A stretch of 64,000 nucleotides of DNA from a virus: IMG/VR virus record IMGVR_UViG_3300035698_005399, positions 19,495 to 83,494 of that record; one strand, given 5' to 3'. Under the pieces are notes generated by a model. That model was not told the origin of the DNA. It did not search any database and saw nothing but the letters and a program-made list of their open reading frames with translations. This document shows positions 31,301 to 63,607 of this stretch, piece after piece (position 1 is the first letter of the stretch; each line of letters begins with the position of its first letter). The translations under genes and the position numbers were made by a program.

Positions 31301-34300
31301 TACTATGCACAAATTCAAATAGAGGCTATTGAAAACTTTCTTACTATACGTAAATTAGGTAGAAGATTAGGTACCTTTCAAGGCTTAATGAATACAGACT
31401 CTGCAGGTATTGGTAAGAACATGATGTTTACTTTTACCAAGTATAATGATGCTCAACAAGCGGCCAAGCAATCTATTACTTTAGATGGAGAAAAAGGTAA
31501 TATTACGAATATGGATTCGTTAATTAATCCCAATGCAGAAACTCCTACTAATGAATTTTCTAGTATGTCTAACAGACATATATTAAAGACTGCCTATGAA
31601 CTGTTTGGAGTATTTTTTCCATATAATACACCAGGCTTTAGAGAAATGGTTCACCAAACTAGTACTGTGTCCAATGAAGACTTTGATAGTAGTTTGAACC
31701 AGAAGACTAATAATAGAAATAAATTATTTAGTCACTTTATGAGCTATACATATAGTGCAATGTTTGAAGATAATGAAAAATTATATTTTGATTCAAAAGA
31801 TAAAAATGCACTAGGACAGAATATTTTAAAGTTACAACAATCTGAAATCAAAGGAAATAAATTCTTACGAAAACTTAAGGTTAGGTTACAGAGAGGAATA
31901 ATTCCAACAACCATTACTATTAATGCTACTAAAGAAGATTCAAGTCAAGATCTTGACACTCACATTGCATTTACTGAGCTATTAAATTCTACACAAGAAA
32001 TTGATGGGGTTAGGGTCAGTGATATGGCTAGAGATCTTATTAGTTACGCATACTTAACTGGTGGACATCAACAAGCCACACAGTTTACAAAATATATTCC
32101 TGTATCATATTTAGTGAATACAGATTTTGCTGACAAATTGAACAAATTAGATTTCAATAACAAGGCCGCTTTATTAAATATGAATCCCAATATTCCAATA
32201 GAAGAACCCTTCTATAAAAGATTGGCCGGATTTACTATTCAATATGCTCAACATAATCCTTGGGTGCTTACACAAGATTCTACATTAGATCATAACAAAG
32301 AAGTTATCTACGATAAAACTATTGTAGATGAAGCTCCTAGTATTGTATCAAAAAGAGTAGAAGAACCCAGTGGTAAAGCCAAATGGGTAATCTTCATAAA
32401 GACTGATATTAATGGTGAACCCGCGCTTATGCGTACTGATAAACTTGGTGGTTCTCAAACAAGAGAATATAACAAGAATGAACCCACATCTAACAATACT
32501 AAATTTGATAAGACTAAGAATAAGAAAGTCCTTCAACCTAGTCCTAAAAAAGTTGATTCTACACAACCTAAATTGGTTGAACCAGCAAATAAAACTAATC
32601 CATTAAATATTACTGCAGGCAAGAATACTGATAATATATTAATTAGTATCTTATCACATCCTGATATTTCACCAGAACTAAAAGCATACGCACAAGAGCT
32701 TGCCGAACTGGGTATTCTTAATGACAATATTACATGGAAGATACTTGATAAAAGTAATCCGGCTAAAGGAAAGCATCACGGAAATGCTAAAGGTTCTACT
32801 ATATTTATTAATCCTGATAGACATGCTACTGCAGAAGACTTAGCAGAAACCATATTACATGAATTGACACATGCTATTACAGCATATCAGATTCACTCAT
32901 ATGAAAAGAATAAAAACTCTGTATCACCTAAGATGCAAGAGTCAATGGCTAAGCTGGAACAATTCATGGATAAAGCTCAAGAAATATTTAAAGAGCAAAA
33001 AGAAGAATTAAAGAAGAAACTAAGTACTGAGGAATTTAATAAATTAGAATATGCGTTAGGATTAAATGCGGCTAATAAAACACCTTTATCTGGGGTAAGA
33101 GAATTACTTGCTACAGCACGTACTAATAAGACTGTAAAAGACTTTCTTAATAATAATATATGGCAAGGTAAGAAATCTTTAATGGAAAGATTCTTAGAAC
33201 TAATTAGTAGAATCTGGAAAGACCTTGGTATTAAAAATGGTGGTGATGTGAGCAAAGGAGTATTGGCAGAGATGTATAATATTGTTCAAGAAAGTAATAA
33301 TGTAGCAAAAAAGCCAGATATTAATGATTCAGCATTAGGAATTAAAGATGATGCTTATTCTGATAAATTACCAGCTTTTACTGGAGATCAATGGAATGCT
33401 AAGAATGCTGCTGAGATTGAATTAGGCATGCGTCACAAAGATGGTGCACCTAAGAGATATTCTAATTACGAAAGAGCGTTAGCTAGGCTACAGGCATTAC
33501 GCAAGAAGCACCCACATAAGAAGATGAAGATGGCCAAGGTCATGGGTGAACCAGGAGATAATAGAGTCTATTATTCACCAGCTTTAGAAAATGAAATGTA
33601 TGATGATTATCTTCCAATGTTTGATTTGGATGAAGAATCAAGAGTATATGCAGACTTAGAATCTGTTATCAAGTCACAATTACAAGAGGTTAATAGAAGA
33701 ATTGGTGAATATAAGAACATTCTTAGGAATGAGCATATGTCTATAGCAGATAAGAGAGATGCTGTTGCTGCAATGGATAGGTTAAACACTAGAAGAAAAG
33801 ATTTAGCTGAGTCAGTTAAAGCTTCTAAAAAACTAATCTCACCAAGAGAATTAGGTCCATTTGGAGAAAAGCATTTACAAGAGATTGAAGAAATTGTTGA
33901 TAAGGATGATATGAATGCTTCTGAGATAGAATATGCAAATAGACTAATTCACTTATGGCAAGCTGCTGGCAAGAGAGATTTAAGACCAGATGAAGAACAT
34001 GTCTTCTTAACAAGAGAAGAATTAGAAAACGATATGTGGTTTGATGGTGATGAAACTTTTGCTGGATTCAATTATTATGCTAATAAAGCTGCTAAGTTTA
34101 AAAGTAAGCTGGCTAATAGAGAACGCGCTATTGTTGGAAATTTTGTAAGAAAGTATACTAGAACTGAATTATCAGATGATGATATTTTTGGTGCTATTAC
34201 TGATGCATACTTATTATCCTCAATGACATTAGATGTATCTAGACATAATGATCCAATGCTTAATGCAATCTTTATTGGAATTAAATCTAAGATAAAAGCT

Positions 34301-37114
34301 GCTAACTTAGAATATGACCGCAAAGTAAAAGAATTTACAAAACTTATCAAAGTTGCTTTACCTGAGTTAAAGAAATTATCAGAAGGAAATAACCCTTATG
34401 AAATTTTCCTACAAAAGGATAAAGATGGTGAACTTACTGGGGGATTAATTTTTCCATTTAGTCAAGACTTCTTTGATAAAAGATCTGAACTAAGACATAA
34501 AAGTCTTAAATCTGATAAAGGATATGAGCAATTTGTAGATTGGAAGAGATCTAATCTAATGATAATGGACCCAAGGATTCTATTTCCAGATGTTGAATTA
34601 TTCAAGCGTCAACAATATAGTGATGCTATGCGCGAAAAACATATTGCTGAACTAAAAGAACAAATGGGAGAAGAAGTATATGAAAAGTATTACAAAGAAT
34701 TAGAAAATAAAATTGGTCAATTCAAAGCTACCTACGAATATAAGAAGATGACTTCTACTGATGAAGAATTTGAAAATTGGAATAAAGAAAATTCACCATA
34801 CTGGTATGCTAGACTAATCAATGATAAGAATAAAATTACAGGTTCTGATGGTAAGAATATCTATTCATATGGATGGGAATATACTGTAGAGATTCCTAGA
34901 AAAACTAATAAAGTTGGTAAAGAAACAGGCTGGTATGATAAGAACTATGATAAAGTTCATCAGAATAAAGCTGTTAGTGAGTTGTATGAATTTATATCAA
35001 GTCAATTGACTGAAATGACCTCATATTTACCACCACACATTACCAAAGATATGCGTATTAATACCCTACCAGACTTAGAAGCAGCATGGTTAGAAGAAGT
35101 AAATGGTAGTGGAATGTCTGCAGCAGTAGGCATGGGTCGTATGATGGATGATTTAAAAAGAGTACTACGTTCTGAAGATAACTTAGAACAAATCAATCAA
35201 CCATTAGATCCATTAACAAAGCAACAAGAACGTTTTGTTCATGCTAGAAATCCAAGTATGTTGGAAAGTAAAGCTACTCAAAAATTAAATATTGCCAAAG
35301 CTAAATATCTAGCGGATACAGGAAAGAACATGCCATTCAAAGTGCAAGTTGCTACCAAGAAAAAGATTGTTGATGAATTAGTAAGAAGCTCAAGAAGATC
35401 CTTAGATTTGGAAAAAATCCTAAGAGGATATATTGCATCATCTACATTGTTTAAGCATAAATCATCTTTACAAGATGAAGTCAAGCTTGTTGAGAATGTA
35501 TTTATGAAACGAGTGGAATATGAAACAAATTCTGTTGGTGATAAAGTAACAGATGGCTATGGTAGAGATATCTTATCTCGTGCTAATCTAGCAAACTATA
35601 AGTCAATGCTACAATATCACTTGGATCATTTCTACAATCTTCCTGCTGAAAAAATTATGGGTAAGACCAATAAAAAACTATTGCTCACTGAAGAAAAAGC
35701 GGTTAAGCAAAGTATTGATGAAGCACAAACTGCATTAAATGAATCTTTAGCAGCAGGCTCTATTGAGCAAGAAGAATATGATGTACAATCTAAATACTTA
35801 GAAGAACAACTTAAAGGACTTGGTGGTGTAGTAACTGGTTCTGGTATGGTAAATCTAGTATTGCGTTATATCCACTTTAAAGGTATGGGTTGGAACGTAT
35901 TCTCTGCATTTTCTAACATGGGATTTGGTGTAATGGCCAACCTAGTAGAAGCAGCAGATGGTAGAACATTTACTACAAAAGAATTCTGGCAGGCAATGAA
36001 AATTGTTAAAGGTAGTATATTTAAAAATGCTACATTTAATCAAATGCAAACTGCAGATGCCATTAAGATTAGAAGCATCATGGATAAATATGACTTCTTA
36101 AAGACAAGCAAGAACGAAGTATATCGTTCACAACTGCATAATCAATTTGAAAAAGGTAGATTTTTATCTCCATATAACTTAACTGATAGATCAGAATACT
36201 TTAACCAAGCACCTGTTGTTGTAGCTATTATGTTACATCAAAAGATTAAGAATCTTAAAGGAGAAGAAGTTAGTCTATGGGAAGCTTTTGATAAGAATGG
36301 TGAATTCAATACTGCAGAATATGGAACAAATTGGCTGGTAGAAAAAAAGGGGGGAAGTCCCAGCCCTGAGATATCTTTCAGTATTCAGGTTGACCAAGCA
36401 ATTAAGAGAATTCATGGTAACTATGATCCAGAGAGTCCTTTGCAACTTAAAGAAACAGCTTTAGGTAGAGCATCTGCACAATTTAGAACATGGTTGTTTG
36501 AAGGTATGGCTGGTAGATTTGATACAAGAGGTGATAAAAATGGCATCTATGATGATGCTGCTGGAATTTATCTTAAAGGTCGTTATGTTTCATTATTTCA
36601 AGTAATGAGAGGTAATGAGGAACATAGCGGAATTAGTAATCTACTATTTACTACAAAACAATTATTTAGAAAACTTGCATCTGCTGCTCCATTTGTAGAT
36701 ATGCCTACAGAATTTGATAAAAGATTCAGTGAGGTAGATGCTGCTAACATGAGAGGCAACTTACAAGAGCTTGTTACATATGGTGTCTTATTAGGTCTTG
36801 CTGCGCTTCTAAAAGGTGCTGCTGGAGATGATGATGATATGGCAATTGCCAATTTATTACTCAATCAACTTAATAGATTACAAACGGATGTTGAAATGTA
36901 TATTAATCCTGCCACTTGGACTAAAACTGTATTAGATGATCCAATTCCTGGTACAAAAGTAATATCAGATTTTAGCAGATGGATGATTTCAGCAACTGAA
37001 TTTGTTCAAGGTAAAGATGGTTCTGGAGAAAAAATGTTTGATAATACACTCAAAATGACTCCGGGTCCTGGTCAAATTAAAAGATTATTTGACGCATCAG
37101 AACAAGTATATTAA
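22313..37114 (+). CDS. Giant virion RNA polymerase-protease polyprotein
   Basis: A 4,933-residue protein. Residues 1-420 have the character of an internal virion protein, with Gly/Ala hydrophobic stretches at about 83-110 and 152-173. Residues about 590-770 are acidic coiled coil. The central part carries MGSDFDVDKLYSY: Asp2703, Asp2705 and Asp2707 match the D-x-D-x-D metal site of the double-psi beta-barrel RNA polymerases of crAss-like phages, which are packaged and injected to transcribe early genes. Around 3516 an HELTH zincin motif (His3516, Glu3517, His3520) with a later RELLA (Glu3597) suggests a zinc peptidase. The last ~1,300 residues are a further helical module with a hydrophobic stretch near 4820-4838. 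Known crAss-like polymerases are much shorter (about 2,200 residues in phi14:2), so this looks like a fusion, possibly self-processed. Confidence 0.75.
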   Translation: MRSVNAGGSKEPIKTGEVVNSGNTDNSIEFKKLRSVNPSSGTSFYAPDPKGQHQGLNLEDTYNQELVNKVIANNQSGYDKAFNAIVGGIASGGLTAVEDLSYMAQSAADLLSKGKLIDEWERNAVAEAMQKAKENLSEALPIYGNPMGFWNSTKSVLDSAIGFALPGALAIKGVSAIQKLPRALQLATRSKRAHAYLEMMRASGGVERITNALAAGTLQNHAEGVMMGMEVYENTLNNQLEANPNATKEQTDRYELAANDAADRFLVANRAMILSDAFSLHGIYQGKQMVRNLMNAPGWQNRFRQFGTSLVKPNADNLILQNAKEGVEEIYQGVQQKEQEYQALKSANLDISTYEAETFDRIWGFITEPTTLYEGLLGFVGGGAQRIITEAAAGKFSSSSRAQKAQAYEQQQAVIQASQEYLDGSLRDVRKVVNFVEQASGTESSVLGETVMDKKFIEIAVMNFEAGTTESLERQLDAIIENEEGTYEKEAISDARRHKELLGKLETQYIKFAKYENQLTLFDNRQAYDLTNRYADDVNKRKQIAFTTLQKEAALLVEGQTIAQDENGVIKNAPFILDPTSDTLIGVDDAAKEKYEKALNQLKDTEAYKEWKALSNQHDKLLGKRKLLNDAYKRDIDPTRQVDLYRVRKEKEEKIVKRAAEIVQEEIDAAQEAAVNESIEKKKADAPTKAKAKPTETTEEKTTPLSEQEEAEQSFLPVPLATNEDGTTQEGQDESTTESSLEAMSKELTSTGLMTAPELDRVDEARKILAKIKADIAEGIKNGLTVEQIVAQVLSKGYNFSSDQIDSLYDYIESRIERYNRLGARDSLDPIGDLRELHEAEALAETEEEKGEVEIAIAEINKPSVFAPVDAQQLFDHYIETIKGAITPWSTIEDIIEALKASDADFADRYERTDKETFHAKIDNLVTEFLNDAFEEEVDQNQRRLEDDRQKDEVTQEKEDAVEKIDEKTKESTVLNLEGAVIGLTYRASISSSGDVNAETIEDLEAFIFDNPWYNSLILDREHIKVGSKLTLRVIDHRRDGKKWTHKVKGVDVNQDVFKEEVPIEEYMDKVYIGAFDSNDEMIGLVYAPFQVSNFKGKQANRKIRQAVVENGDVEMEVDTITAGAIARMGKRAAFATNMPDSPILLNDGTIFTGDHPPKGFPLLFKGEDIKSYRGTTFTYIQTVDGPIPIPLNVNKARNIDGVIDILIKATESFFTQDTKSATEFRDTIKEKTNIDIFSEAGLRAFFNRYVYAADGGIMSDMAKRKSTYGGVSIWNREGVSIVEYGLGGEKKTNSFSAARMESNPENLGVAMKSLRNALAHTFLKVNKANLDGLDSKYTVLTLDKNGSIHDINEGKTYREFLAEKVFATNVATPKLSNGKRAHTISDVITLKPVGEQLKRAVENPTVEVNEKEEEAIENTAETRAKAILAKRKAKKANTDLDDYLPDFDSDKSDTKSSPDIITIDNDDLLIEHLTSTEQIQIIDYLASEIANLALQSDNLKAQDADISEVFRGFEKKLRDSVETQEWLAGIDDTFNLEAAKAKVKSLIARIDFLEKLVKNRLSVIGVVNENNTEVADTLIERNTYSEGFSLTLNPKDTAGAKLKYWLMRIKMEANGETVQSDFTETTGVEFDRYIPYDHAFEVLSEITAGHPADWDTMLEVIRINQGNLVWLPGLYNEIKDVKDEQLQNQFITAMTKRNTNMKKAAFRRNAENEFFFSVIDENSNSVTQATLEKWQINFLNNEKMFIHKEGKKTLDKDRLKELERIHDALTLRLIKSENVPLAEINELLGEFGISISKKIYDKLASKNKDGHLTLFRNGEKYTYNIAQVFQGFGPFSKKILIAPLAKDDSITDEFNLFSDNSLFSMARYVGQHDPTLSSNSFRVGDKSIYAYRLNNLITERIEELKDPRKALPLMKMAYNKHAGILEHMYKKEKGEFVFDENGLPIIKDESFVDLFQISDLSLEALKDLTSSLEGAGLIDLDEGSHEFAKVILYQAKQRRLKHSQKRVGTMLFPTFSDKTGADMVQTYLEDVVLNDDGTLSDQTAELIYQRVVRPEVNRIKANANRKEKYNIKSYNAGAALFYAFPELNDREAFPELYDKGILKPMDIVSKAAIRSAIKAHYQKLIDNKVADWKKHGLDDKMDKNYKKLLRESIAQKNITPEHMLRAAAADFEVNYTLNTADMFKLFHGDPALYFKISDKDVKNKQKNKKNLNAADYIQIVKDTFTNVGKRLAADIAPGQNIAYDFKSSFRMVLLPDQKRESTSLPYYARLKIKGLNDYKEIEGADAQEFTTFAEHLEILFKMGKLPTGVYKNALEKYTTWVKKEKAGIPLTKDDYISKKDLGLVMQPLKPVYTNNIATDGVYRRIYIKSSSIPLLPQLTNGLEIDKLRKAMERDGIDRAAFGTAFKVGAPLNPIEGMWNPDSTINEDTLSFKDSPAVLVLPRKGFRIQQEIPDKDEQVNPGSQERKLLFTDLLHIDGMKELKNEFNSAWDSLFELRKKVLYNELNDENNKLDFNKLQTMLKEEAVSRNWPINDRLALEVMNDQFTLPLWAMQSRGRIEALLNSIIDNKIRKIKFPGKSFVLATEEGFRQLQGTDLKNSGIKFNKYWKGELTHTSADKQTTDVIVPWKYTNDKGEKIPIPLTSEGLVDTDKLGDEDLGRMFGFRIPTQGLNSMANIRVVGYLPAEMGDVIIASRDFTKQMGSDFDVDKLYSYRKHYYTDNQGKIRTITEKTIAADLPKHMQNKLVEMKLINKIIDIHYQVMDNSDVEIQKRIAEPLSFQELKKQDAEGNEIGLAKKHDDLRNQNTDKSFFSPMSSNYQRGKLINGTAGKAGVGAFSLDSVFNAMIQGRNVTVTNFQKTMFGITTNGDLSSPFVLSDNGRTKGEVVSGYQSAAVDNENEQILDKLNINKHTFAFIRAMNQLGYEESHAAAILNQPIIRKLVARLGAAESPLSDDQVNDDSVLLDELTKEFEEIKINPDINLSVEEYEKAIPGDKSVPYYAQIQIEAIENFLTIRKLGRRLGTFQGLMNTDSAGIGKNMMFTFTKYNDAQQAAKQSITLDGEKGNITNMDSLINPNAETPTNEFSSMSNRHILKTAYELFGVFFPYNTPGFREMVHQTSTVSNEDFDSSLNQKTNNRNKLFSHFMSYTYSAMFEDNEKLYFDSKDKNALGQNILKLQQSEIKGNKFLRKLKVRLQRGIIPTTITINATKEDSSQDLDTHIAFTELLNSTQEIDGVRVSDMARDLISYAYLTGGHQQATQFTKYIPVSYLVNTDFADKLNKLDFNNKAALLNMNPNIPIEEPFYKRLAGFTIQYAQHNPWVLTQDSTLDHNKEVIYDKTIVDEAPSIVSKRVEEPSGKAKWVIFIKTDINGEPALMRTDKLGGSQTREYNKNEPTSNNTKFDKTKNKKVLQPSPKKVDSTQPKLVEPANKTNPLNITAGKNTDNILISILSHPDISPELKAYAQELAELGILNDNITWKILDKSNPAKGKHHGNAKGSTIFINPDRHATAEDLAETILHELTHAITAYQIHSYEKNKNSVSPKMQESMAKLEQFMDKAQEIFKEQKEELKKKLSTEEFNKLEYALGLNAANKTPLSGVRELLATARTNKTVKDFLNNNIWQGKKSLMERFLELISRIWKDLGIKNGGDVSKGVLAEMYNIVQESNNVAKKPDINDSALGIKDDAYSDKLPAFTGDQWNAKNAAEIELGMRHKDGAPKRYSNYERALARLQALRKKHPHKKMKMAKVMGEPGDNRVYYSPALENEMYDDYLPMFDLDEESRVYADLESVIKSQLQEVNRRIGEYKNILRNEHMSIADKRDAVAAMDRLNTRRKDLAESVKASKKLISPRELGPFGEKHLQEIEEIVDKDDMNASEIEYANRLIHLWQAAGKRDLRPDEEHVFLTREELENDMWFDGDETFAGFNYYANKAAKFKSKLANRERAIVGNFVRKYTRTELSDDDIFGAITDAYLLSSMTLDVSRHNDPMLNAIFIGIKSKIKAANLEYDRKVKEFTKLIKVALPELKKLSEGNNPYEIFLQKDKDGELTGGLIFPFSQDFFDKRSELRHKSLKSDKGYEQFVDWKRSNLMIMDPRILFPDVELFKRQQYSDAMREKHIAELKEQMGEEVYEKYYKELENKIGQFKATYEYKKMTSTDEEFENWNKENSPYWYARLINDKNKITGSDGKNIYSYGWEYTVEIPRKTNKVGKETGWYDKNYDKVHQNKAVSELYEFISSQLTEMTSYLPPHITKDMRINTLPDLEAAWLEEVNGSGMSAAVGMGRMMDDLKRVLRSEDNLEQINQPLDPLTKQQERFVHARNPSMLESKATQKLNIAKAKYLADTGKNMPFKVQVATKKKIVDELVRSSRRSLDLEKILRGYIASSTLFKHKSSLQDEVKLVENVFMKRVEYETNSVGDKVTDGYGRDILSRANLANYKSMLQYHLDHFYNLPAEKIMGKTNKKLLLTEEKAVKQSIDEAQTALNESLAAGSIEQEEYDVQSKYLEEQLKGLGGVVTGSGMVNLVLRYIHFKGMGWNVFSAFSNMGFGVMANLVEAADGRTFTTKEFWQAMKIVKGSIFKNATFNQMQTADAIKIRSIMDKYDFLKTSKNEVYRSQLHNQFEKGRFLSPYNLTDRSEYFNQAPVVVAIMLHQKIKNLKGEEVSLWEAFDKNGEFNTAEYGTNWLVEKKGGSPSPEISFSIQVDQAIKRIHGNYDPESPLQLKETALGRASAQFRTWLFEGMAGRFDTRGDKNGIYDDAAGIYLKGRYVSLFQVMRGNEEHSGISNLLFTTKQLFRKLASAAPFVDMPTEFDKRFSEVDAANMRGNLQELVTYGVLLGLAALLKGAAGDDDDMAIANLLLNQLNRLQTDVEMYINPATWTKTVLDDPIPGTKVISDFSRWMISATEFVQGKDGSGEKMFDNTLKMTPGPGQIKRLFDASEQVY
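30419..30433 (+). other. RNA polymerase active-site codons (DFDVD)
   Basis: These five codons encode Asp-Phe-Asp-Val-Asp, residues 2703-2707 of the giant protein, within MGSDFDVDKLYSYRK. Three alternating aspartates in this setting chelate the catalytic magnesium ions in two-barrel RNA polymerases, including the crAss-like virion enzyme. The fold itself cannot be proved by eye. Confidence 0.7.
32858..33103 (+). other. Zincin (HExxH...E) motif inside the giant protein
   Basis: Codons 32858-32872 encode His-Glu-Leu-Thr-His (3516-3520) in the context TILHELTHAITAY. A Glu at 33101-33103 (3597, in GVRELLATARTNKTVKDFL) is a good third zinc ligand. The spacing and the E-L-L-A-x-A-x-x-N element recall the metallopeptidase domains found in other very large mobile-element proteins. 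It could cleave the polyprotein itself or other virion proteins. Confidence 0.65.
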
Positions 37115-42424: not shown

Positions 42425-43344
42425 AAATATGGAGTAGTTTTAACTAACTCCTTTATTGTTTTTACTTTATTTACGATTTCGTTCAATCCTAAATTTGCAA
42501 TTACATTTTCATCATTGTGCCAAAAATTATTAAGTTCTGTTAATGGTAAGCATCTAGTACGAATGCCTAAATTTTCAACATTGTTCAACAATTCTCTAAA
42601 TTTATTCTTATAGGTACTACTTTTTGTAGTATTATAAAACTCATCATTATACCAATATTCAAATGCTTCTACATCTATAGGCATATAATTATCAATAACA
42701 ATCCTATTTATAATATACTTTCGAAATTCCGGCTTAACCATTAAATTAGAATGAATAATCTTTTTATCTAAAATAGAACTACTATTCAAAATTTGAATTC
42801 CTGCATTTATCAATAAACTATAATTTATCCCATTAGATGAAAACTCATTACTCAAACTAAATCGCTGTTTTATTGGAACTATACCGTGCATCTCCTTTAT
42901 TTCAAATGTATTTGCATTTACATATTGATGTGTTATATAATTTTCAAGATTTGTTAAATGATCATATAGATCCACATCAATATTATTAGTAAAAGCAAGC
43001 AACTTAATACCCCGCTCAACACTACCACTTTCATAGAATTCATGATGCAAACCATCGTTAAGAATAATAGTTTTAAACATACTTCCTATTTGATTACTAA
43101 TAGTGTTAATATCAATATTTTCTTCAAATATATCATACATATTATTATGCACTGCTTTTTGAATTTTATTATTATAAGATTCTAATAAATGAGAAAATAC
43201 ATTATATGGAAAAGGAATTAATTTATCAAAATTAATACAGTTTAGAATATCTTTTTTGAAAAGATAACCTCGAAAATTTTCAAATTTATTATCGGCTTGT
43301 GTTTTTGTAATATCAATAATGATATCAATTCTAGAATTTTTAAT
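42421..43344 (-). CDS. Unknown protein at the end of the ubiquitin-like cluster, non-ATG start
   Basis: An open frame runs from a stop near 43357 to 42421 and contains no ATG, GTG, TTG or CTG before an internal GTG at 43152. The 64 codons above that GTG read as ordinary protein (SRIDIIIDITKTQ, ENFRGYLFKKDIL), so the protein most likely begins in this stretch. The best site is ATT at 43344, which overlaps the E1 stop codon as ATTAA and gives 307 residues. Alternatives are a +1 frameshift from the E1 gene at its A5 run, a sequencing indel, or a shorter 243-residue product from the GTG. The protein is Asn/Ile-rich alpha/beta with no family I recognise. As the last gene of the cluster it may be its substrate, adaptor or regulator. 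Confidence 0.55.
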   Translation of the reverse strand: MKNSRIDIIIDITKTQADNKFENFRGYLFKKDILNCINFDKLIPFPYNVFSHLLESYNNKIQKAVHNNMYDIFEENIDINTISNQIGSMFKTIILNDGLHHEFYESGSVERGIKLLAFTNNIDVDLYDHLTNLENYITHQYVNANTFEIKEMHGIVPIKQRFSLSNEFSSNGINYSLLINAGIQILNSSSILDKKIIHSNLMVKPEFRKYIINRIVIDNYMPIDVEAFEYWYNDEFYNTTKSSTYKNKFRELLNNVENLGIRTRCLPLTELNNFWHNDENVIANLGLNEIVNKVKTIKELVKTTPYL

Positions 43345-44089
43345 TTTTCGTCTCCGTTAATACACACGGTTCGCAACTATTGTTCCCATCTATAATTATA
43401 TTTTCTTGTGTTGTAAAAGTAAACATTGGTAATTCATAGCAAGTTTTAACTGGAAAACTAAACATTTCAACTTGAAGATTCTGATTTGCGATAATATTCA
43501 AATATAACTGTAACATATAAGCGCCAATAATGGCTCCATTATGAGATGTTGCCTTATAAGAACATGGTGCATCTTGTACCTCAGAATCATCAAAGAATTC
43601 AGCTTCATATTGTTCGATCTTATCTGGTGTAACACAATAAACAATACCTGTTTCTGCACTCATTCTACCATCTATAAACAAACAATTTTCACCACCATTA
43701 CTTTTAGTATGTTTTTTCCATGCATCAAACATTAAACGTCTTGCTTTCATGTTATCAAATGCTGAAAATACTACATCTGTTACAGTTGATTCTTCTACAA
43801 ATTCACCAACAGGAGTAATTTTCATTTCATCACACATTTTATCACAAACATCCATGACAGAATCTGATTTTAATGAACCAATATGATCTGTAAAATAAGC
43901 TTGTCCTCCAATATTATGCGTCTCAATGGTATCCATTTCATATAAATAAATGTTATACCCTACTCTACTTAAAAATATGGCAAGCCAGCTACCAATACCC
44001 CCGGCACCACCCAGAGTGACATGATTGTCACCTGAGTTGTACCAGTTAGCATCGGTAAATCTAGCATGCATTTCGTTTTTTTCACTCAT
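43340..44089 (-). CDS. E1-like/ThiF-family adenylating enzyme
   Basis: A 249-residue protein with the ThiF/MoeB/E1 fold. The nucleotide loop is LGGAGGIGSWLAIFLSR (Gly27-Gly33). Asp53 and the N-x-x-x-Q element follow (MDTIETHNIGGQAYF), then GSLKSD with Lys74 and the SAFDNMKARRLM segment with Asp112 and Arg117. These activate the C-terminus of a ubiquitin-like protein by AMP transfer. Cys176 (APCSYKATSHNG) is a candidate thioester cysteine. A terminal C-x-x-C (CEPCVL) may bind metal. It overlaps the JAMM gene by 4 bases, and a beta-grasp protein and an E2-like protein are in the same operon, so protein modification is more likely than thiamine or molybdopterin synthesis. Confidence 0.8.
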   Translation of the reverse strand: MSEKNEMHARFTDANWYNSGDNHVTLGGAGGIGSWLAIFLSRVGYNIYLYEMDTIETHNIGGQAYFTDHIGSLKSDSVMDVCDKMCDEMKITPVGEFVEESTVTDVVFSAFDNMKARRLMFDAWKKHTKSNGGENCLFIDGRMSAETGIVYCVTPDKIEQYEAEFFDDSEVQDAPCSYKATSHNGAIIGAYMLQLYLNIIANQNLQVEMFSFPVKTCYELPMFTFTTQENIIIDGNNSCEPCVLTETKN

Positions 44090-45276
44090 ATTGTCGATGT
44101 TGATAGTTTATATTTTGCGATTAAATCATCAAAAAATAATACTAAATCTTCTAATTTTTCTTTAGTAGCATTATCATAAATATTAATAGTAAGAAGCTGA
44201 CTTCTACAATTTGTAGCAAGAGCCAAATAATCAGCATCTTGATCAGCATCTACTGGGGAAATATTAAAATAATCTTGCGCTTCGTTTTCGAAACTATCTG
44301 CTAAAGCTTGAAAATAAGTATCAGTATTTTTAAGTGTAATTTTTCCAACTTTTAATACAGCATCATAAAGCAATAAAGCATGATATCCTGTTGCTGATAA
44401 TGTAATAAATTTACCTAAAAACTTTTTAACATCATAAGAAATATTTATTTGCGCCGCCAACGCCGGTGATTTTTCTTTTTGTGTTTTCCCTTCTTCTGAT
44501 GTGATTTTCCCTGCTGGGAAACCTGGTGTGTATCGAAATGTACCTTGTGTTCCTCCTCCAGCACCTCCATAGCTAGGATACTTCGGATAAGTCTTAACTA
44601 CTGGGATTAAATCTTGGAATCTTTCCTCCAATTTATCCCCAATATTAAAATTTGGTACTGGTTTTTCAATATCACAATTAACATAATAAATCAAATCTTT
44701 TTCTGGAACCTCTTTTGTAGTTGACCCAAAGATAGAAGTTGTTACTACACTAGTAGCTTCTTGTTTACCAGTAACACATAGTTTTGCAACAGGAGTATTA
44801 TTATAATTTACAATAAGCGATACATAATATTTGTGATTTGGAGCATTAATTCGAAGCTCATCCATATCAGTTCCGCTAAAGAAAGCTTCCATGTTATGAT
44901 GTGTATGAATATGACCCATAATCCAACGATCATCATCTGCTGTCTCCATTGGATCAGATTGAGGATACTCATCCCACATTTCGCTTAAATCTTTTGGATT
45001 ATATTCGTATTCAGTATAAGCAGCAGTTCCAATATTCATAAGATGAATAGCTTGTGCTTCTAATACCAAAGTTTTTGGGTCTAAGATGTCTCCTTCTTTA
45101 AAAGACCACAATAAAATACCAGACCACTCCAATCCTTTAATTCTACTTTGTGAATGCAACCATTTGACTTGATCCCATAGCTTAGGTGTAATAATTAATT
45201 TACACTTATCTACAATTGTTTGTTCTACAAACTCTTTCTTAACGGGTATTACCGCTACTGGTGTTTTTGTTGTCAT
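44086..45276 (-). CDS. JAMM/JAB-domain metallopeptidase
   Basis: A 396-residue protein. The N-terminal ~200 residues form a JAB/MPN+ domain: Glu50 in LEWSGILLW, then GHIHTHHNMEAFFSGTDMDEL, which gives His124, His126, Ser134 and Asp137 in the H-x-H-x7-S-x-x-D spacing of zinc-dependent deubiquitinases. A Gly/Pro-rich linker (about 235-280) leads to a helical C-terminal domain (about 285-396) with no family I know. It would mature the ubiquitin-like protein or remove it from targets. It overlaps the E2-like gene by 38 bases and the E1 gene by 4. The catalytic set is complete by eye. Confidence 0.8.
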   Translation of the reverse strand: MTTKTPVAVIPVKKEFVEQTIVDKCKLIITPKLWDQVKWLHSQSRIKGLEWSGILLWSFKEGDILDPKTLVLEAQAIHLMNIGTAAYTEYEYNPKDLSEMWDEYPQSDPMETADDDRWIMGHIHTHHNMEAFFSGTDMDELRINAPNHKYYVSLIVNYNNTPVAKLCVTGKQEATSVVTTSIFGSTTKEVPEKDLIYYVNCDIEKPVPNFNIGDKLEERFQDLIPVVKTYPKYPSYGGAGGGTQGTFRYTPGFPAGKITSEEGKTQKEKSPALAAQINISYDVKKFLGKFITLSATGYHALLLYDAVLKVGKITLKNTDTYFQALADSFENEAQDYFNISPVDADQDADYLALATNCRSQLLTINIYDNATKEKLEDLVLFFDDLIAKYKLSTSTI

Positions 45277-57556: not shown

Positions 57557-57850
57557 TTATGTTTGAATTTTAAGTGTTTTTTGTTTGCATTTTGGAAACA
57601 AGGGCCTTGCAATTCTGACAATATCAACTAAACAAGAATGTTTGATATTTTCACCAATTGTCATACAACCTAATCGTATTGCACCAGATCCAGTAAAAAG
57701 TTCATGTAAACGTTCAATTTCTTTCTTGGCTCCTTTTTTAGTAAATGATTTAGCAGGTGTATATATAAAATGGCGATCTTCAAATCCACATTCGTCTGGT
57801 AAATATACTGTTGCTTCTAAATGATAATTTTTTTTCTCTTTCTTTTTCAT
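57557..57850 (-). CDS. Small basic hypothetical protein
   Basis: A 97-residue basic protein with Lys-rich ends (MKKKEKKNYHLEA; KCKQKTLKIQT). The middle (YTPAKSFTKKGAKKEIERLHELF, GCMTIGENIKHSCLVDIVRIARPLF) is alpha/beta. It starts on the stop codon of the polymerase gene and ends just before the membrane protein gene. Four cysteines are scattered without a clear metal motif. Function unknown; DNA or RNA contact is possible from charge. Confidence 0.5.
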   Translation of the reverse strand: MKKKEKKNYHLEATVYLPDECGFEDRHFIYTPAKSFTKKGAKKEIERLHELFTGSGAIRLGCMTIGENIKHSCLVDIVRIARPLFPKCKQKTLKIQT

Positions 57851-58914
57851 TAAAATAAAGTTTTTTGAAAATTGTTATTTAGCTTTAAGATAATGTCATT
57901 TGCACGTTTAGTATAATAACCATAATTAATATTATAGTCGTCTGAACCAAAAAAATCATTAAATAATGTAATCTTGAATCCTGCTACCAAACTTACTCTT
58001 TTATCTTGAGCTTTATATTTTTTATATAGATACCCTCCAGTATTACTAACGTAATATCTATTGTTTTTTTGGAGATTGTCTATTTTATAATTACCATCAT
58101 TAAAATAATGATGTTCTGTTTGAAATTGTGGTCCTGTTTTTTGAGCCATACAAAAATCATAAATATTATCATGATTCTTAAAGAACTCTAATATATCAGC
58201 ACCATTAATTAAATGCTCGTATATAGCTTTTGCTATAACTGGAGCATCATACCCACCACTTAAATTTTCACTTGTTGAAAAGTCACCTTTAATTTTAACA
58301 TTATCATATTCGTCTACAATAAGATAATTATTAACATCTTTAATGTACATTTTCTTGTACTCAACAAATTCTAAAATAAATCCGGTCTCTTCTTGCCACT
58401 CTTTAGAAATCTGATAATACGTATCAGTTAATGAACGATCAAATAGACAAGTTATACCATCAGTATTACTATAAACACATTTGATACCAGCTAGACTTAG
58501 CTTTTCAACAAGCATAAGTAAGAATAGTTGACCATTAAGTGTCACACTATACATTGCTTGTTTGTCTAATAAATAACTATAATCATTACCTAGCTTACCA
58601 TATATACTGTTGATGGCTATCTTTAAAGCTTCTGCTTTAAGCGCCATCTTGGGGTCTTCCTTCTTGAGAACTTTAGCTTTAAGCCGCTGCTGCATAATAT
58701 CATTAACAATATGATAAAAATCTTTACCTAAATGTTCTGGATAAATGCCCAATTCTACAAGAATAGCTGGATAGAACGAACTTGCATCCGCATCCAGTAT
58801 AATTTCATTTGCTTTAGGAATAATAATTCCAGGTTTGCTTTCACTATGTAGACCTCCCTTTGCCATAGTATGCATCAAACCATCTATCGCTATTCTTCGT
58901 TTAAAGTCAAGCAT
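57850..58914 (-). CDS. polB: Family B DNA polymerase, polymerase domain
   Basis: A 354-residue polymerase half. Motif A is DADASSFYPAIL with the catalytic Asp, motif B is LKIAINSIYGKLGN and motif C is VYSNTDGI, with Asn-Thr-Asp in place of the usual Asp-Thr-Asp. KKMYIKD and IKGDF segments fit the thumb side. It starts at an ATG (58914) that lies inside the end of the exonuclease cistron, 25 bases of overlap, in the -1 frame. A slippery heptamer at the overlap could fuse the two halves into one ~606-residue enzyme; separate translation as two subunits is the alternative. Replicative DNA synthesis is the role. Confidence 0.8.
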   Translation of the reverse strand: MLDFKRRIAIDGLMHTMAKGGLHSESKPGIIIPKANEIILDADASSFYPAILVELGIYPEHLGKDFYHIVNDIMQQRLKAKVLKKEDPKMALKAEALKIAINSIYGKLGNDYSYLLDKQAMYSVTLNGQLFLLMLVEKLSLAGIKCVYSNTDGITCLFDRSLTDTYYQISKEWQEETGFILEFVEYKKMYIKDVNNYLIVDEYDNVKIKGDFSTSENLSGGYDAPVIAKAIYEHLINGADILEFFKNHDNIYDFCMAQKTGPQFQTEHHYFNDGNYKIDNLQKNNRYYVSNTGGYLYKKYKAQDKRVSLVAGFKITLFNDFFGSDDYNINYGYYTKRANDIILKLNNNFQKTLF

Positions 58915-59669
58915 TGTATTTCAATTGTTTTTAAATCATCGAGTAGATGTTTTAATTGATCTGTTTGAAATACGATTTTGTCTGATATACAATCTTTAAA
59001 GTGTACTGTTTGTCTTTTAGTGCTAAGATATCTAAACCTTCTTGGTTCCAATCCTGTGGCGTCAGCATAAAGCTTTTCCATTAATTTATCTCCAACACCG
59101 GCTCTACTTTTGTTAATTACATTTACATTGTAATTTGCACCAACGTCTATTCTAAGGTTTATTTCTGGTAAAATTCTAAAAAATAATTTCTTAGTAATTA
59201 ATACATCGTTTAAATTATATTGTAGGATTTCCTCAATTTGGTTTTCAGAAATGATACTTTCGTGATGTAAAGGAAAGTCTTGAATTTTAGGCCATTGCAT
59301 ATTAATGGCGCATTGTTTCAAACTAATACCTTTTGCGTCGTGGTGTAATATCTTATATAAATCTACAGTCAAATATCCAAGTTTAGCTTGTTGCTTCTTT
59401 TCACTTTCGATAATTTTCTGTGTTGTTTTATATAATTGTTGATTAGACTGCCCTTGGTTAAATGCTTTTAATAAAACATCATCAAATTCTAGATTATTAT
59501 AACCTACAAGTGATGTAATTGTTTCATAAAATGAATTGTAATTTGCTATACTTTCACTATATTCATCATTCAATTTGTATATTGTAAAGCTATCTTCAGA
59601 ATGAAGGTCTACAAATATAATTGAAAAAAAATTGGGGAATACTTCAATATCATAAGCATAAGAACTCAT
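58890..59669 (-). CDS. polB: Family B DNA polymerase, 3'-5' exonuclease domain
   Basis: A 259-residue proofreading half. Exo I is YAYDIEVFPNFF with Asp and Glu at the start, Exo II is LVGYNNLEFDD, and Exo III is QYNLNDVLIT with Tyr and Asp. The C-terminal part (residues about 195-257) leads into the palm of a family B enzyme but stops at TAG (58892-58890) just after the heptamer TTTAAAC. I start it at the ATG at 59669 (MSSYAYDIEVF); an upstream start at 59708 would sit inside the terminator hairpin. The hairpin just upstream means the gene may need its own promoter or read-through. Confidence 0.8.
   Translation of the reverse strand: MSSYAYDIEVFPNFFSIIFVDLHSEDSFTIYKLNDEYSESIANYNSFYETITSLVGYNNLEFDDVLLKAFNQGQSNQQLYKTTQKIIESEKKQQAKLGYLTVDLYKILHHDAKGISLKQCAINMQWPKIQDFPLHHESIISENQIEEILQYNLNDVLITKKLFFRILPEINLRIDVGANYNVNVINKSRAGVGDKLMEKLYADATGLEPRRFRYLSTKRQTVHFKDCISDKIVFQTDQLKHLLDDLKTIEIQCLTLNEE
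58899..58905 (-). promoter_or_regulatory. polB: Candidate -1 ribosomal frameshift site TTTAAAC
   Basis: On the - strand the exonuclease frame reads ...ttg-act-tta-aac-gaa-gaa-tag. The bases T-TTA-AAC are a canonical X-XXY-YYZ heptamer in the correct phase. A -1 slip gives ttt-aaa-cga-aga, which is exactly the polymerase frame, and the exonuclease stop follows 6 bases later. A weak 6-bp stem (ACTATG with CATAGT) lies about 25 bases further on; no strong pseudoknot is obvious. Confidence 0.5.
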
Positions 59670-59672
59670 AAT

Positions 59673-59706
59673 AAAAAAGGGGAGTAACAAATTAATGTCA
59701 CTCCCC
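59673..59706 (-). terminator. Intrinsic terminator between the small gene and polB
   Basis: In the - strand RNA, GGGGAGUGAC and GUUACUCCCC form a 10-bp stem with one G-U pair around an 8-base loop, followed by six U. It sits 7 bases after the end of the 97-residue gene and directly before the ATG of the exonuclease cistron. This is a strong intrinsic terminator shape and should reduce transcription into polB. Confidence 0.85.
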
Positions 59707-59712
59707 AATTAT

Positions 59713-60017: not shown

Positions 60018-60296
60018 TTAAAAGGGGTGTTTTGCAACCCCATATTTTGGAATATAATTCCTAATGTTGCGATTTTTATCGCGTCTTCTTCTTAATTGGA
60101 ATCTCTCTGTTGGAGGAGCATTGAATTCTTGTGAATCATTCAGCTTCATACTACTACGATATTCACGCATTAAATCATCTGGTGATAATATTTTTGCGTT
60201 CATATAATGCTTTGCTTGTTTAATCTGCGCTTCATTGATTAATGCATCTTCCGCCATCCTCAAGAGATCTTCCAAACTATCCTTGGTTTTACTCAT
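60018..60296 (-). CDS. Small basic hypothetical protein
   Basis: A 92-residue protein with a helical N-terminal half (SLEDLLRMAEDALINEAQIKQAKHYM) and a basic C-terminal half (FQLRRRRDKNRNIRNY, ending in KYGVAKHPF). The Arg-rich stretch may bind nucleic acid. It overlaps the NAMPT gene by 8 bases. No family recognised. Confidence 0.5.
   Translation of the reverse strand: MSKTKDSLEDLLRMAEDALINEAQIKQAKHYMNAKILSPDDLMREYRSSMKLNDSQEFNAPPTERFQLRRRRDKNRNIRNYIPKYGVAKHPF
60024..60041 (-). terminator. Weak terminator-like hairpin
   Basis: In the - strand RNA a 5-bp GGGGU/ACCCC stem around an 8-base loop is followed by UUUUAAUUUAAUUU. It spans the last codons of the 92-residue gene and lies 18 bases before the next ATG. 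The short stem makes it weak; it may instead be an RNA-processing or stabilising hairpin. Confidence 0.5.
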
Positions 60297-61734
60297 TGTT
60301 CATCTCTTTTAAAAATTTGTCCAGACTATAATTATTCAATATTTCTTCAAATGTATAATCTTTAACTAGTTCTCCAGTATCAAAAACAGTTTCAAGAGTA
60401 TCCTTATATCCATCATAAGCTAGGTCCATGTGATTGACTGTCATGTAATTAGTTAATTTATTACTGGTATACCCAGGTACTAACTTCATTTGACCAGTTT
60501 TACTTTTTTTACCGCTTGATGTTACAGGATTCTTTTGAATATTAATTGGTCCATCTGAATATTCAGCATAAGACGCTTTAATAGCAAAAGAGATATCATC
60601 CCTTGTGTGTTCTCTCAATAAACCTCCTCCAGAACCTACTACGATATTTGCAGCAGACCAACCATCATTGCAGACAGCTTTATATAATTCTGTAATACTA
60701 TTAATATTCATGCCATCTCCTTGAATAAGACCCACATTGTGATTTATAACTTTATATCCGTTATGAAAAATATATCCAAAAACTTCCGCTAATATAGGCA
60801 ATAAAGTGAGATTAACTTCAATAGGATTGCCGCTGTCTGGACGTAGTACAAATCTACCTGTTCTAGCAATAATTTTACTTTTCACCTCTTCGTGACCTAA
60901 TACGTTACGTGCGAAATTATATATATCGTAACTGTCACCTACACAACTGATGATGGCATCATCTGGTGTTACATCTAATAAATGTAACACATATTCAACT
61001 TCCTTATCTGGTCCAAAGGATGTGGGCACACTATGCTCAGAAGCTAATACAGATATTAGTCGGGGATGATTCTTATGATAATAAATATCTAAAGCTCTAT
61101 CTCCAACTGTTGTATCTGAACCATACCCATTAAGCAATTGTGCTGCTCCACCTCTATATGCTTCTTGAAAGCAACTTGTTCCTCTGAAACCAAAATCATT
61201 AATTGCATACATCAACATATCCAATGCATTAGAATCCCTATAATAAGGATAAATATTCTTTAAGATATGTAATCCATGCGTCGCTACTACGATAGGATAC
61301 CACGTATGTGTAATTAAAGTCTCCATACTATTCAGCAAAGGTGCGAACAAAGGGTCCAGACTTTCCATAGTGAAAAGCACATTAGACTTGTTTACAATCT
61401 TTCCTTCTGGTACAGCCTTAATTTTCATAGGCAATTTCCCATCATATCGTTTGAGAATTTCAACCCAAGCAGTTTTATTGAAATAGTTGTAATCTTTTCC
61501 AAACCAAAAACTTGCATATCGTTCTGCTTCTTCAATCTTCTCTAAAGTTATTACTTGTCCTACAAAGTGATCTTTTAAGACCATCTGTAATCCAAAAAAA
61601 GTAATCCAGTCGTATTTTGAACCTGTTCTAGCTTCGCCATAACTGTACATCTTTTGCAAATTACTTAGATGCTGTTTCCAGTGAGTAAGTTTATAAGCAT
61701 CTGTATCTATAATAATATTTTCTTGTAATATCAT
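60289..61734 (-). CDS. nadV: Nicotinamide phosphoribosyltransferase (NAMPT)
   Basis: A 481-residue enzyme, close to the usual ~490, that joins nicotinamide and PRPP to make NMN. Visible signature blocks are DFGFRGTS (with Asp180), ASEHSVPTSFG with His234 (the phosphorylated His of human NAMPT), RPDSGNP (298-304, substrate loop), IQGDGMN and VGSGGGLL (phosphate binding). It is the first step of NAD+ salvage, and the Nudix and NMNAT genes lie directly upstream in the same operon with 4-10 base overlaps. In phages such genes have been linked to rebuilding NAD+ after defence systems destroy it. Dimeric cytoplasmic enzyme expected. Confidence 0.92.
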   Translation of the reverse strand: MILQENIIIDTDAYKLTHWKQHLSNLQKMYSYGEARTGSKYDWITFFGLQMVLKDHFVGQVITLEKIEEAERYASFWFGKDYNYFNKTAWVEILKRYDGKLPMKIKAVPEGKIVNKSNVLFTMESLDPLFAPLLNSMETLITHTWYPIVVATHGLHILKNIYPYYRDSNALDMLMYAINDFGFRGTSCFQEAYRGGAAQLLNGYGSDTTVGDRALDIYYHKNHPRLISVLASEHSVPTSFGPDKEVEYVLHLLDVTPDDAIISCVGDSYDIYNFARNVLGHEEVKSKIIARTGRFVLRPDSGNPIEVNLTLLPILAEVFGYIFHNGYKVINHNVGLIQGDGMNINSITELYKAVCNDGWSAANIVVGSGGGLLREHTRDDISFAIKASYAEYSDGPINIQKNPVTSSGKKSKTGQMKLVPGYTSNKLTNYMTVNHMDLAYDGYKDTLETVFDTGELVKDYTFEEILNNYSLDKFLKEMNNE

Positions 61735-62231
61735 CGTGTTAATCTATAAATATCTCTTTCTTTAATTGCCCGCTTCATTAAAATTTCATGATTGGGAATT
61801 AACTTGCCTATCGAATTATAAGGTCTACGAGGAATTAAATATGAGCCATCAGTATTAAATTCAAATTCTTCAAGTTTATCTAAATCATCAAATGCAGTAG
61901 GAGTTCCAACAAAACGCCCACACATAAATACATGAGTAATCATTGAATGTGGAGTGTCTCTATATCTACTATCATCAATACGCATATTAAATGCATATCT
62001 TAGGTCAGTAGCATGACATCCAGTTTCTTCAAAGAATTCTCTATACGCTGCTTCTTCAATAGAAACATCTTCGGGATCAACAAATCCACCAGGAAATCTT
62101 CGAAGATTACCATCTTCTTTCTTTTGACCAAGTAAAATTTTACCATCCCTAATGCAAATAATATCTACTGTATTAAAAGCAGTAGGAAATTTGACAAAAT
62201 GATCTGGATTTGTTATAATATTACTGTTCAT
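61731..62231 (-). CDS. Nudix hydrolase, probable NAD-pathway type
   Basis: A 166-residue Nudix protein. The box is PGGFVDPEDVSIEEAAYREFFEETG (47-71), slightly longer than the standard spacing, with the R-E-x-x-E-E-T-G core intact. The fold begins with VDIICIRDGKILLGQKK. Flanked by NAMPT and NMNAT genes with overlaps on both sides, it resembles ADP-ribose pyrophosphatases that partner NMNAT. It could clear ADP-ribose made by NADases or defence enzymes and return phosphoribose for NAMPT. The exact substrate is not determined. Confidence 0.8.
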   Translation of the reverse strand: MNSNIITNPDHFVKFPTAFNTVDIICIRDGKILLGQKKEDGNLRRFPGGFVDPEDVSIEEAAYREFFEETGCHATDLRYAFNMRIDDSRYRDTPHSMITHVFMCGRFVGTPTAFDDLDKLEEFEFNTDGSYLIPRRPYNSIGKLIPNHEILMKRAIKERDIYRLTR

Positions 62232-63387
62232 AGTTAAAATCTAATTTTTCTGTAGTACTAGTTTCACACCCACTAATGTATTTAGTACATTCCTCATAGG
62301 ATTTAGCACAACTACAAGGATTGCTTCTTTCTTCTGTAGAACTTTTACCATCTCTAGTAAATACAATAGTGGTAAGTTTTTTAAAATGTTCATCAGAAAT
62401 CTTCTCCCTGACATCTTCGCCCATAACAAATACAGGTGTAAAATCAAGAATTCTTTCTTTAAACATGGTGTGGTTATTCATAAACATTGAAGAATCTGTT
62501 ACCATAATATAATCTGCGTCTGCAGTATTACGTAACATATTAATTCGTTTATGGATTTCGGCCACGCTAAGTTTTGCTTTATCGTAATTATAAATACTCA
62601 ATAACAATACTGTAATATTTTCTTCAGATACATCGTCTAATACTTTAGCATGTCCTGAATGCCAAGGATTAAAGCTACCTTTGTATACTACAGCCTTAGT
62701 AGTACCACGCAAAGCCTCTTCCATTCTAACAAACTTGTTTTGCTTTACATCAAATGTTACAAAAGAATGTGTTAGATTCTTAAACATTAATTCAAAGTCA
62801 ACTGTTAATTCGGGCTCACCATAATTGAAATTACCAGTATAAGCCATGTCAACATATCCTAAAATAGTATCAGAATTACCAGTAATCATGTAATGGAGCA
62901 ATCCCAAATGGTAATAGCTTGCATTAGCTGCACCAAATACTCGATCTGCTTTAATGTTACGACTAACACCAGTATTGACATAAGGTGGTGCTGTTACATG
63001 AAACAATCCAATACGTTCTTTGTAATAGATACAAATCCATCCATGATTAGCTACACCACGTCCTACTTGCCATGATGCCGCAAAACATAAATTTTCATCT
63101 TTAATTCTTGCAAAATTAAATTTATCGGTATACCACTTACCTACGAGACGCATAACTCTTTCATCTGAAACAGAACGAACTATTTTATCAGATGGTACTT
63201 CGTGTTCTTGGCGGTCCTTACCATAGTAACTTATATATTGTGCAATAGTCTTACTTGCTCCAGGCTCACTCCACAAGGCTCTATAGAGCCCCATGTCTGT
63301 ACCTAAATCATAGAAGCTACCATATGCATCCGAGTTATGGATTTGTTGTATAAGTTCTGATTCGATTAAGTTATTGGGATTATCCAT
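62221..63387 (-). CDS. CinA-like domain fused to NMN adenylyltransferase
   Basis: A 388-residue protein with two parts. Residues about 1-165 resemble the CinA/PncC C-terminal (NMN deamidase-type) fold: ESELIQQIHNSD, EPGASKTIAQYISYYG, SVSDERVMRLVG, and a LCFAASWQVGRGVANHGWICIYY core. Residues about 230-360 are a nucleotidyltransferase with GSFNPWHSGH (237-246), the adenylate-binding G-x-F-N-P-x-H-x-G-H motif, and SSTEERS near residue 345, matching the S-S-T-x-x-R motif of NMNAT enzymes. The C-terminal 30 residues hold five cysteines. Together with NAMPT this gives nicotinamide to NMN to NAD+. Whether the CinA-like half still deamidates NMN is unknown, because its active-site residues are not evident to me. 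Confidence 0.75.
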   Translation of the reverse strand: MDNPNNLIESELIQQIHNSDAYGSFYDLGTDMGLYRALWSEPGASKTIAQYISYYGKDRQEHEVPSDKIVRSVSDERVMRLVGKWYTDKFNFARIKDENLCFAASWQVGRGVANHGWICIYYKERIGLFHVTAPPYVNTGVSRNIKADRVFGAANASYYHLGLLHYMITGNSDTILGYVDMAYTGNFNYGEPELTVDFELMFKNLTHSFVTFDVKQNKFVRMEEALRGTTKAVVYKGSFNPWHSGHAKVLDDVSEENITVLLLSIYNYDKAKLSVAEIHKRINMLRNTADADYIMVTDSSMFMNNHTMFKERILDFTPVFVMGEDVREKISDEHFKKLTTIVFTRDGKSSTEERSNPCSCAKSYEECTKYISGCETSTTEKLDFNYEQ

Positions 63388-63574
63388 ATATTTTAATTGT
63401 TATTGGTTGTAATTTAAAAAATCCAGGGTACTTTGTAAATTCATCATTGGTTATTTTATTTGCGATTTCTTCAGCAGCTAATAAATCATTTGTCCTTATA
63501 TAAGATCCACCACTAAAACCAATTCTGTCTTCTGATCGCATTAGCTTATATAAATTTAGTGTTTCAATAATCAT
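63380..63574 (-). CDS. Small hypothetical protein
   Basis: A 64-residue protein started at the ATG at 63574 (MIIETLNLYKLMRSED); an in-frame TTG at 63601 is less likely. It has an alpha/beta pattern (GFSGGSYIRTNDLLAAEEIANKI, then LQPITIKIYG). It overlaps the CinA/NMNAT gene by 8 bases, so it belongs to the NAD operon. Unknown function. Confidence 0.5.
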   Translation of the reverse strand: MIIETLNLYKLMRSEDRIGFSGGSYIRTNDLLAAEEIANKITNDEFTKYPGFFKLQPITIKIYG

Positions 63575-63607
63575 AATTCTAATATTTAGTTTGGGGTACA
63601 AGGCTAG

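Follow-up and report, generated by a model that had tools for sequence, protein, structure and literature searches.

A CinA-like domain fused to a predicted NMN adenylyltransferase in a putative NAD+-salvage cassette of a crAss-like phage

The locus and its phage

The window analyzed here, a stretch of 64,000 nucleotides, comprises bases 19495-83494 of a viral record totalling 83,494 bases. Three consecutive open reading frames (ORFs) on its minus strand, P0001, P0002 and P0003, encode a two-domain fusion protein, a Nudix hydrolase and a nicotinamide phosphoribosyltransferase (NAMPT) (Table 1). The fusion and Nudix genes overlap by 11 nt and the Nudix and NAMPT genes by 4 nt, confirming at these coordinates the original prediction that NAMPT, Nudix and a predicted NMN adenylyltransferase (NMNAT) fused to a CinA/PncC-like domain are consecutive and overlapping.

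Table 1. Features of the three-gene block and its flanking ORFs, in window positions
Feature	Position	Strand	Evidence
73-aa ORF preceding the fusion, 8 nt overlap with fusion start	63380..63601	-	no Pfam or PHROG match
CinA-like/adenylyltransferase fusion gene (P0001), 388 aa	62221..63387	-	profile of 17 family members, P0001 excluded: 67.9 bits, residues 11-336 (both halves)
N-terminal CinA/PncC-like domain, residues about 1-224	62716..63387	-	hhalign to family N-terminus
NMN/NaMN-adenylyltransferase (AT) domain (predicted), residues about 225-356	62320..62715	-	PF01467, 5e-9
ATP-site motif 1 GSFNPWHSGH, fusion residues 237-246	62650..62679	-	
ATP-site motif 2 SSTEER, fusion residues 349-354	62326..62343	-	
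Stand-alone Nudix hydrolase (P0002), NatV (NadM-Nudix) type, 166 aa	61731..62231	-	PF00293, 2e-14
Nudix box GGFVDPEDVSIEEAAYREFFEETG, residues 48-71 of P0002	62019..62090	-	sequence
NAMPT/NadV (P0003), 481 aa	60289..61734	-	Pfam, PHROG and solved Nampt matches
92-aa ORF after NAMPT, 8 nt overlap with NAMPT	60018..60296	-	no significant Pfam or PHROG match

The crAss-like character of the phage is evident from a capsid protein of the Pfam family Crass_capsid (4.4e-63) and a DNA polymerase nearest to Crassvirales. The cassette adjoins replication genes, among them those for DNA polymerase and ThyX, and a ribonucleotide reductase is also encoded by the phage. No such cassette was found near the polymerase in the closest phages by DNA polymerase (cr107_1, crAss002, L079 and L080). 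Two minus-strand ORFs, one for the exonuclease and one for the polymerase part (58890-59708 and 57850-58914, respectively), make up the family B DNA polymerase; they lie in different frames and overlap by 25 nt, unlike the single polymerase gene of cr107_1 and crAss002. The split may be natural, or it may reflect a programmed frameshift or an assembly error. Elsewhere in the window, adjacent and overlapping ThiF (E1-like) and JAB-domain genes (43340-44089 and 44086-45276, minus strand) suggest that this crAss-like phage encodes a pair for ubiquitin-like conjugation and deconjugation. One ORF of 4933 aa (22313-37114, plus strand), very large among phage proteins, is probably a giant virion protein as in crAss-like phages.

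NAMPT and a Nudix gene detached from NadM

P0003 carries the Pfam domains NAMPT_N (7e-28) and NAPRTase (4e-27) and matches the PHROG nicotinamide phosphoribosyl transferase (1e-118) and solved Nampt (6tac; 5.6e-95, 322 bits). It also matches the Namat entries 9W5X and 9W5W (9e-43). A Namat (NARP1) identity was ruled out at 150 bits for 9W5X versus 322 bits for Nampt, and no Adps was noticed on inspection of the cassette neighbors. P0003 is nearer to Nampt than to Namat, and a NARP2-like route of Nampt plus NMNAT therefore fits better than NARP1.

The Nudix box of P0002 has an intact REFFEETG core with slightly longer spacing than canonical. Against a NatV profile made from four NadM-Nudix proteins (A4), P0002 matches positions 163-276 of 310 only (6.8e-30). 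Nothing in the 83,494-base record, which may be incomplete so that NadM could lie outside it, matches the NadM half of this profile, and no NadR exceeded its curated cut-off in this phage or in phages G002, G004, G258, G259 and G260. By its profile match, P0002 corresponds to the Nudix half of the NadM-Nudix (NatV) protein usual in phages, here detached, and the CinA-fused adenylyltransferase seems to take the place of the absent NadM half. Of the 22 viral NAMPT loci examined, most have their Nudix match in a NatV-sized ORF, and NadM-Nudix is encoded beside NAMPT in the inspected phage records LR756502, LR756504 and Tunturi_5.

The adenylyltransferase half of the fusion

The only Pfam match in P0001 is CTP_transf_like (residues 234-346, 5e-9). 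Both ATP-site motifs, (H/T)xxH and SSTxxR, are intact, as GSFNPWHSGH and SSTEER. A degenerate second motif, ISGCET, that emerged from the MAFFT alignment was rejected, since SSTEER is present earlier in the protein. The AT half scores 61-63 bits with the AT profile of its own family versus 34 bits with NadD, Foldseek matches it to an NaMN adenylyltransferase (5llt, 1e-4), and the family profile matches Staphylococcus aureus NadD (2h29, 2.4e-9). The fusion does not reach the curated cut-offs for NadD, NadR or NadM (best TIGR00482, 27.6 bits versus a cut-off of 112). A PHROG match to heptose adenylyltransferase is weak (0.0037) and is explained by the shared nucleotidyltransferase fold. The sequence does not reveal whether NMN or NaMN is preferred; the highest scores come from NadD-type profiles. 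A tree of AT domains places P0001 with the relatives L072 and L075 (support 0.895), in a topology whose deeper branching is unreliable because another relative (L076) falls with NadD. Residues 357-388 (62224-62319, minus strand) form a cysteine-containing C-terminal tail (CSC...C...C) absent from aligned relatives.

Relatives in viruses and bacteria

Used alone as a query, P0001 found no relative in phage and viral collections. Three ORFs of the same size among NAMPT neighbors match its C-terminal half, and profiles built from these gave further relatives. Scans of viral contigs with the fusion profile, made without NAMPT in the query, yielded 10 full-length viral relatives in other contigs, not all of them independent (L006, L020 and L025 are one cluster). 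NAMPT lies within about 6 kb of nine of these, overlapping the fusion gene in one case; the record of the tenth (L068) holds no NAMPT (PF18127). The pairing of CinA fusion and NAMPT recurs in unrelated phages. Not every fusion replaces NadM: three closely related phages (G001, G003 and G005) also hold a complete NatV. G002, like the phage described here, has only the Nudix half of NatV; the NatV profile found no NadM half in G004, G258, G259 or G260. Apart from the three with complete NatV, the NAMPT-bearing viral relatives have at most the Nudix half or an unrelated Nudix, with no NadR above the cut-off. Two loci differ in their Nudix genes. In contig L028, from a relative phage, the fusion is directly preceded by a Nudix that is NudE-like and a NAMPT that is divergent (2789-4918), so that this three-gene set draws on different Nudix stock. 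In L027, which belongs to the contig of L013, NAMPT is separated from the NatV-type Nudix by another small Nudix-like ORF (6574-6999).

The fusion also occurs in bacteria. A full-length protein was found in 6 of 246 sampled Planctomycetota genomes, the Planctomycetota carriers being L029, L031 and L057-L061, and the L029 protein is 29-36% identical to viral relatives (alignment A3). NAMPT is absent from all seven Planctomycetota genomes that carry the fusion; therefore, the bacterial or ancestral role may not be NAMPT-fed NMN salvage. No function is reported for the Planctomycetota proteins in the literature searched. Similar two-domain proteins, with a CinA-like domain and a nucleotidyltransferase, occur in plants.

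The CinA-like half of the fusion

Neither Pfam nor PHROG gave a separate match to the N-terminal half of P0001. Aligned by hhalign to the family N-terminal profile, built without P0001, this half matched over residues 9-152 (P = 7e-5), with a score of 35.9 versus a maximum of 20.0 in 60 shuffles. Escherichia coli PncC matched the same profile at P = 1.2e-4 (score 33.1 versus a shuffle maximum of 22.8), and Pfam CinA reached 0.076 on the fusion family. An AlphaFold model of the L028 relative (pLDDT 85.7) matched the CinA structures 4ct8, 2a9s and 5kvk, as well as the NaMN/NMN adenylyltransferases 3e27 and human NMNAT (1nup). In the model of P0001 itself the N-terminal half has low confidence (pLDDT mostly 30-50), yet it matches CinA 5vu3 (E = 2.7e-3), a result that is not independent of the relatives because they were in its alignment. 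The family is thus CinA-like in its N-terminal half, as originally predicted, with the window copy the weaker case and its CinA-like nature shown only via relatives.

PncC holds the phosphate through a Tyr and through the Gly and Ser of its GxS block, and its general base is the Lys in YxNxxK (PMC3855486, PMC4246079). We compared these sites in 18 full-length members, viral and bacterial, P0001 among them. All 18 retain the phosphate-site Gly, Ser and Tyr, including the window copy. The catalytic Lys is kept in none, the window copy again included, the conserved Asn of YxNxxK survives in bL061 only, and the TGIAGPxGG loop of PncC is lost in the family. The window copy additionally lacks the ESCTGG block (TGG loop). 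With the Lys missing in 18 of 18, an active NMN deamidase was rejected as improbable, and the original suggestion of NMN clean-up or a change of route by this half is unsupported. With the Lys lost and the Gly, Ser and Tyr kept, the domain is therefore probably a non-deamidating pseudo-PncC.

Such a pseudo-deamidase may still bind a 5'-phosphoribosyl ligand. From the retained residues, we consider the CinA half probably a module for dimerization and/or ligand binding, either NMN-holding or NMN-sensing. In the window copy, it is more decayed than in the family and may be mainly structural. A more specific idea, which we regard as unlikely, is that the pseudo-deamidase binds NMN and hands or gates it to the fused NMNAT, or pairs with host PncC and spoils it. 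If this were true, host PncC, whose active site comes from both subunits, would be disabled, phage NMN would not be drained into the deamidated pathway, and the fusion would be both an enzyme and a shield for its own substrate.

A putative NAD+-salvage cassette and alternative explanations

We think it quite probable that the block is a phage NAD+-salvage cassette in which NadM has been displaced by a CinA-fused NMNAT, most likely without NMN deamidase activity in its CinA half. NAMPT would convert nicotinamide and PRPP to NMN, and the C-terminal half of the fusion, presumably acting on NMN rather than NaMN, would combine NMN with ATP to give NAD+. The cassette would also dispose of the NAD+ breakdown product, and the predicted substrate of the Nudix enzyme is of the ADP-ribose type. 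The scheme would resemble NARP2 and the NadV/NatV set that many large phages carry, with NadM displaced by an enzyme of NadD/NMNAT fold joined to a CinA-like domain.

The cassette could be used against NADase defenses, as phage NAD+ reconstitution is reported as counter-defense by NARP1 and NARP2 (PMC11984713, PMC9503650). The leading alternative, that it boosts metabolism in general and supplies NAD+ for phage replication instead of countering such defenses, is possible, if not our favored view. The proximity of the cassette to replication genes such as those for DNA polymerase and ThyX, in a phage with ribonucleotide reductase, is in keeping with it, whereas the reported counter-defense role and a Nudix of predicted ADP-ribose type, which fits repair after NADase attack, speak for the other use. 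The two uses are not mutually exclusive.

We find it improbable that the fusion adenylates another phosphate compound, is not an NMNAT and lies near NAMPT incidentally. The breadth of the CTP_transf_like family, the presence of NatV in three of the phages and the lack of NAMPT in the bacterial carriers speak for it; however, 9 of the 10 viral relatives are near NAMPT, which was not part of the query that found them, most of those nine lack NadM, and the best profile and fold matches are to NaMN/NMN adenylyltransferases. A deamidated route, in which the CinA half converts NMN to NaMN, the NadD-like AT half makes NaAD and host NadE completes NAD+, would suit the best-scoring NadD-type profiles and the standard bacterial feeding of that pathway by PncC (PMC3680494), but it is very improbable given the missing general-base Lys (18 of 18), the Asn missing in all but bL061, the lost TGIAGPxGG loop and, in the window copy, the lost ESCTGG block.

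Significance for searches and function

In a survey of viral NAD+ metabolism, the phage synthesis enzymes are NadV with NadM (Nudix-fused) or NadR, and CinA is unmentioned (PMC9503650). The literature searched, most subscription papers being outside its coverage, yielded no paper that describes a CinA-NMNAT fusion. By its homology and motifs, the CinA-fused type seems to represent a third phage NMNAT beside NadM and NadR. Such a type would widen searches for NAD+-based counter-defense, which would miss the fusion because its N-terminal half is below the Pfam CinA cut-off and its AT half below the NadD cut-offs. The fusion also offers a direct test of the role of a pseudo-PncC domain, in both the viruses and the bacteria that share the protein.

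Comparison with known systems

The fusion shares with PncC the fold of its N-terminal half, at the family level, and the Gly, Ser and Tyr of the phosphate site, but it lacks the catalytic Lys, YxNxxK and TGIAGPxGG and has an AT partner in place of COG1058. The Planctomycetota proteins have the same two-domain architecture and motifs but are chromosomal, without NAMPT in the genomes tested. Like NARP2, the cassette combines a Nampt-type enzyme with an NMNAT candidate, recognized here by homology and motifs; unlike NARP2, it has an extra Nudix gene and a CinA-fused NMNAT. Phage NatV is a fusion of NMNAT and Nudix (PMC7139368, PMC9503650), and the KVP40 pair is reported to suffice for salvage (PMC7139368). 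NadV and NatV of KVP40 and many large phages likewise comprise NAMPT, an NMN adenylyltransferase and a NatV-type Nudix, with the same predicted pathway. Compared with that set, the locus has NAMPT but no NadM-Nudix fusion; its Nudix is a separate gene, NadM is missing, and an AT of NadD/NMNAT type is fused to a CinA-like domain. The original claim that this combination goes beyond the two-gene version rests on the CinA fusion and not on the Nudix, since KVP40-type natV already joins NMNAT and Nudix, and it was overstated because NAMPT, NMNAT and Nudix are the ordinary phage set. The departure from that set is in how the three activities are packaged.
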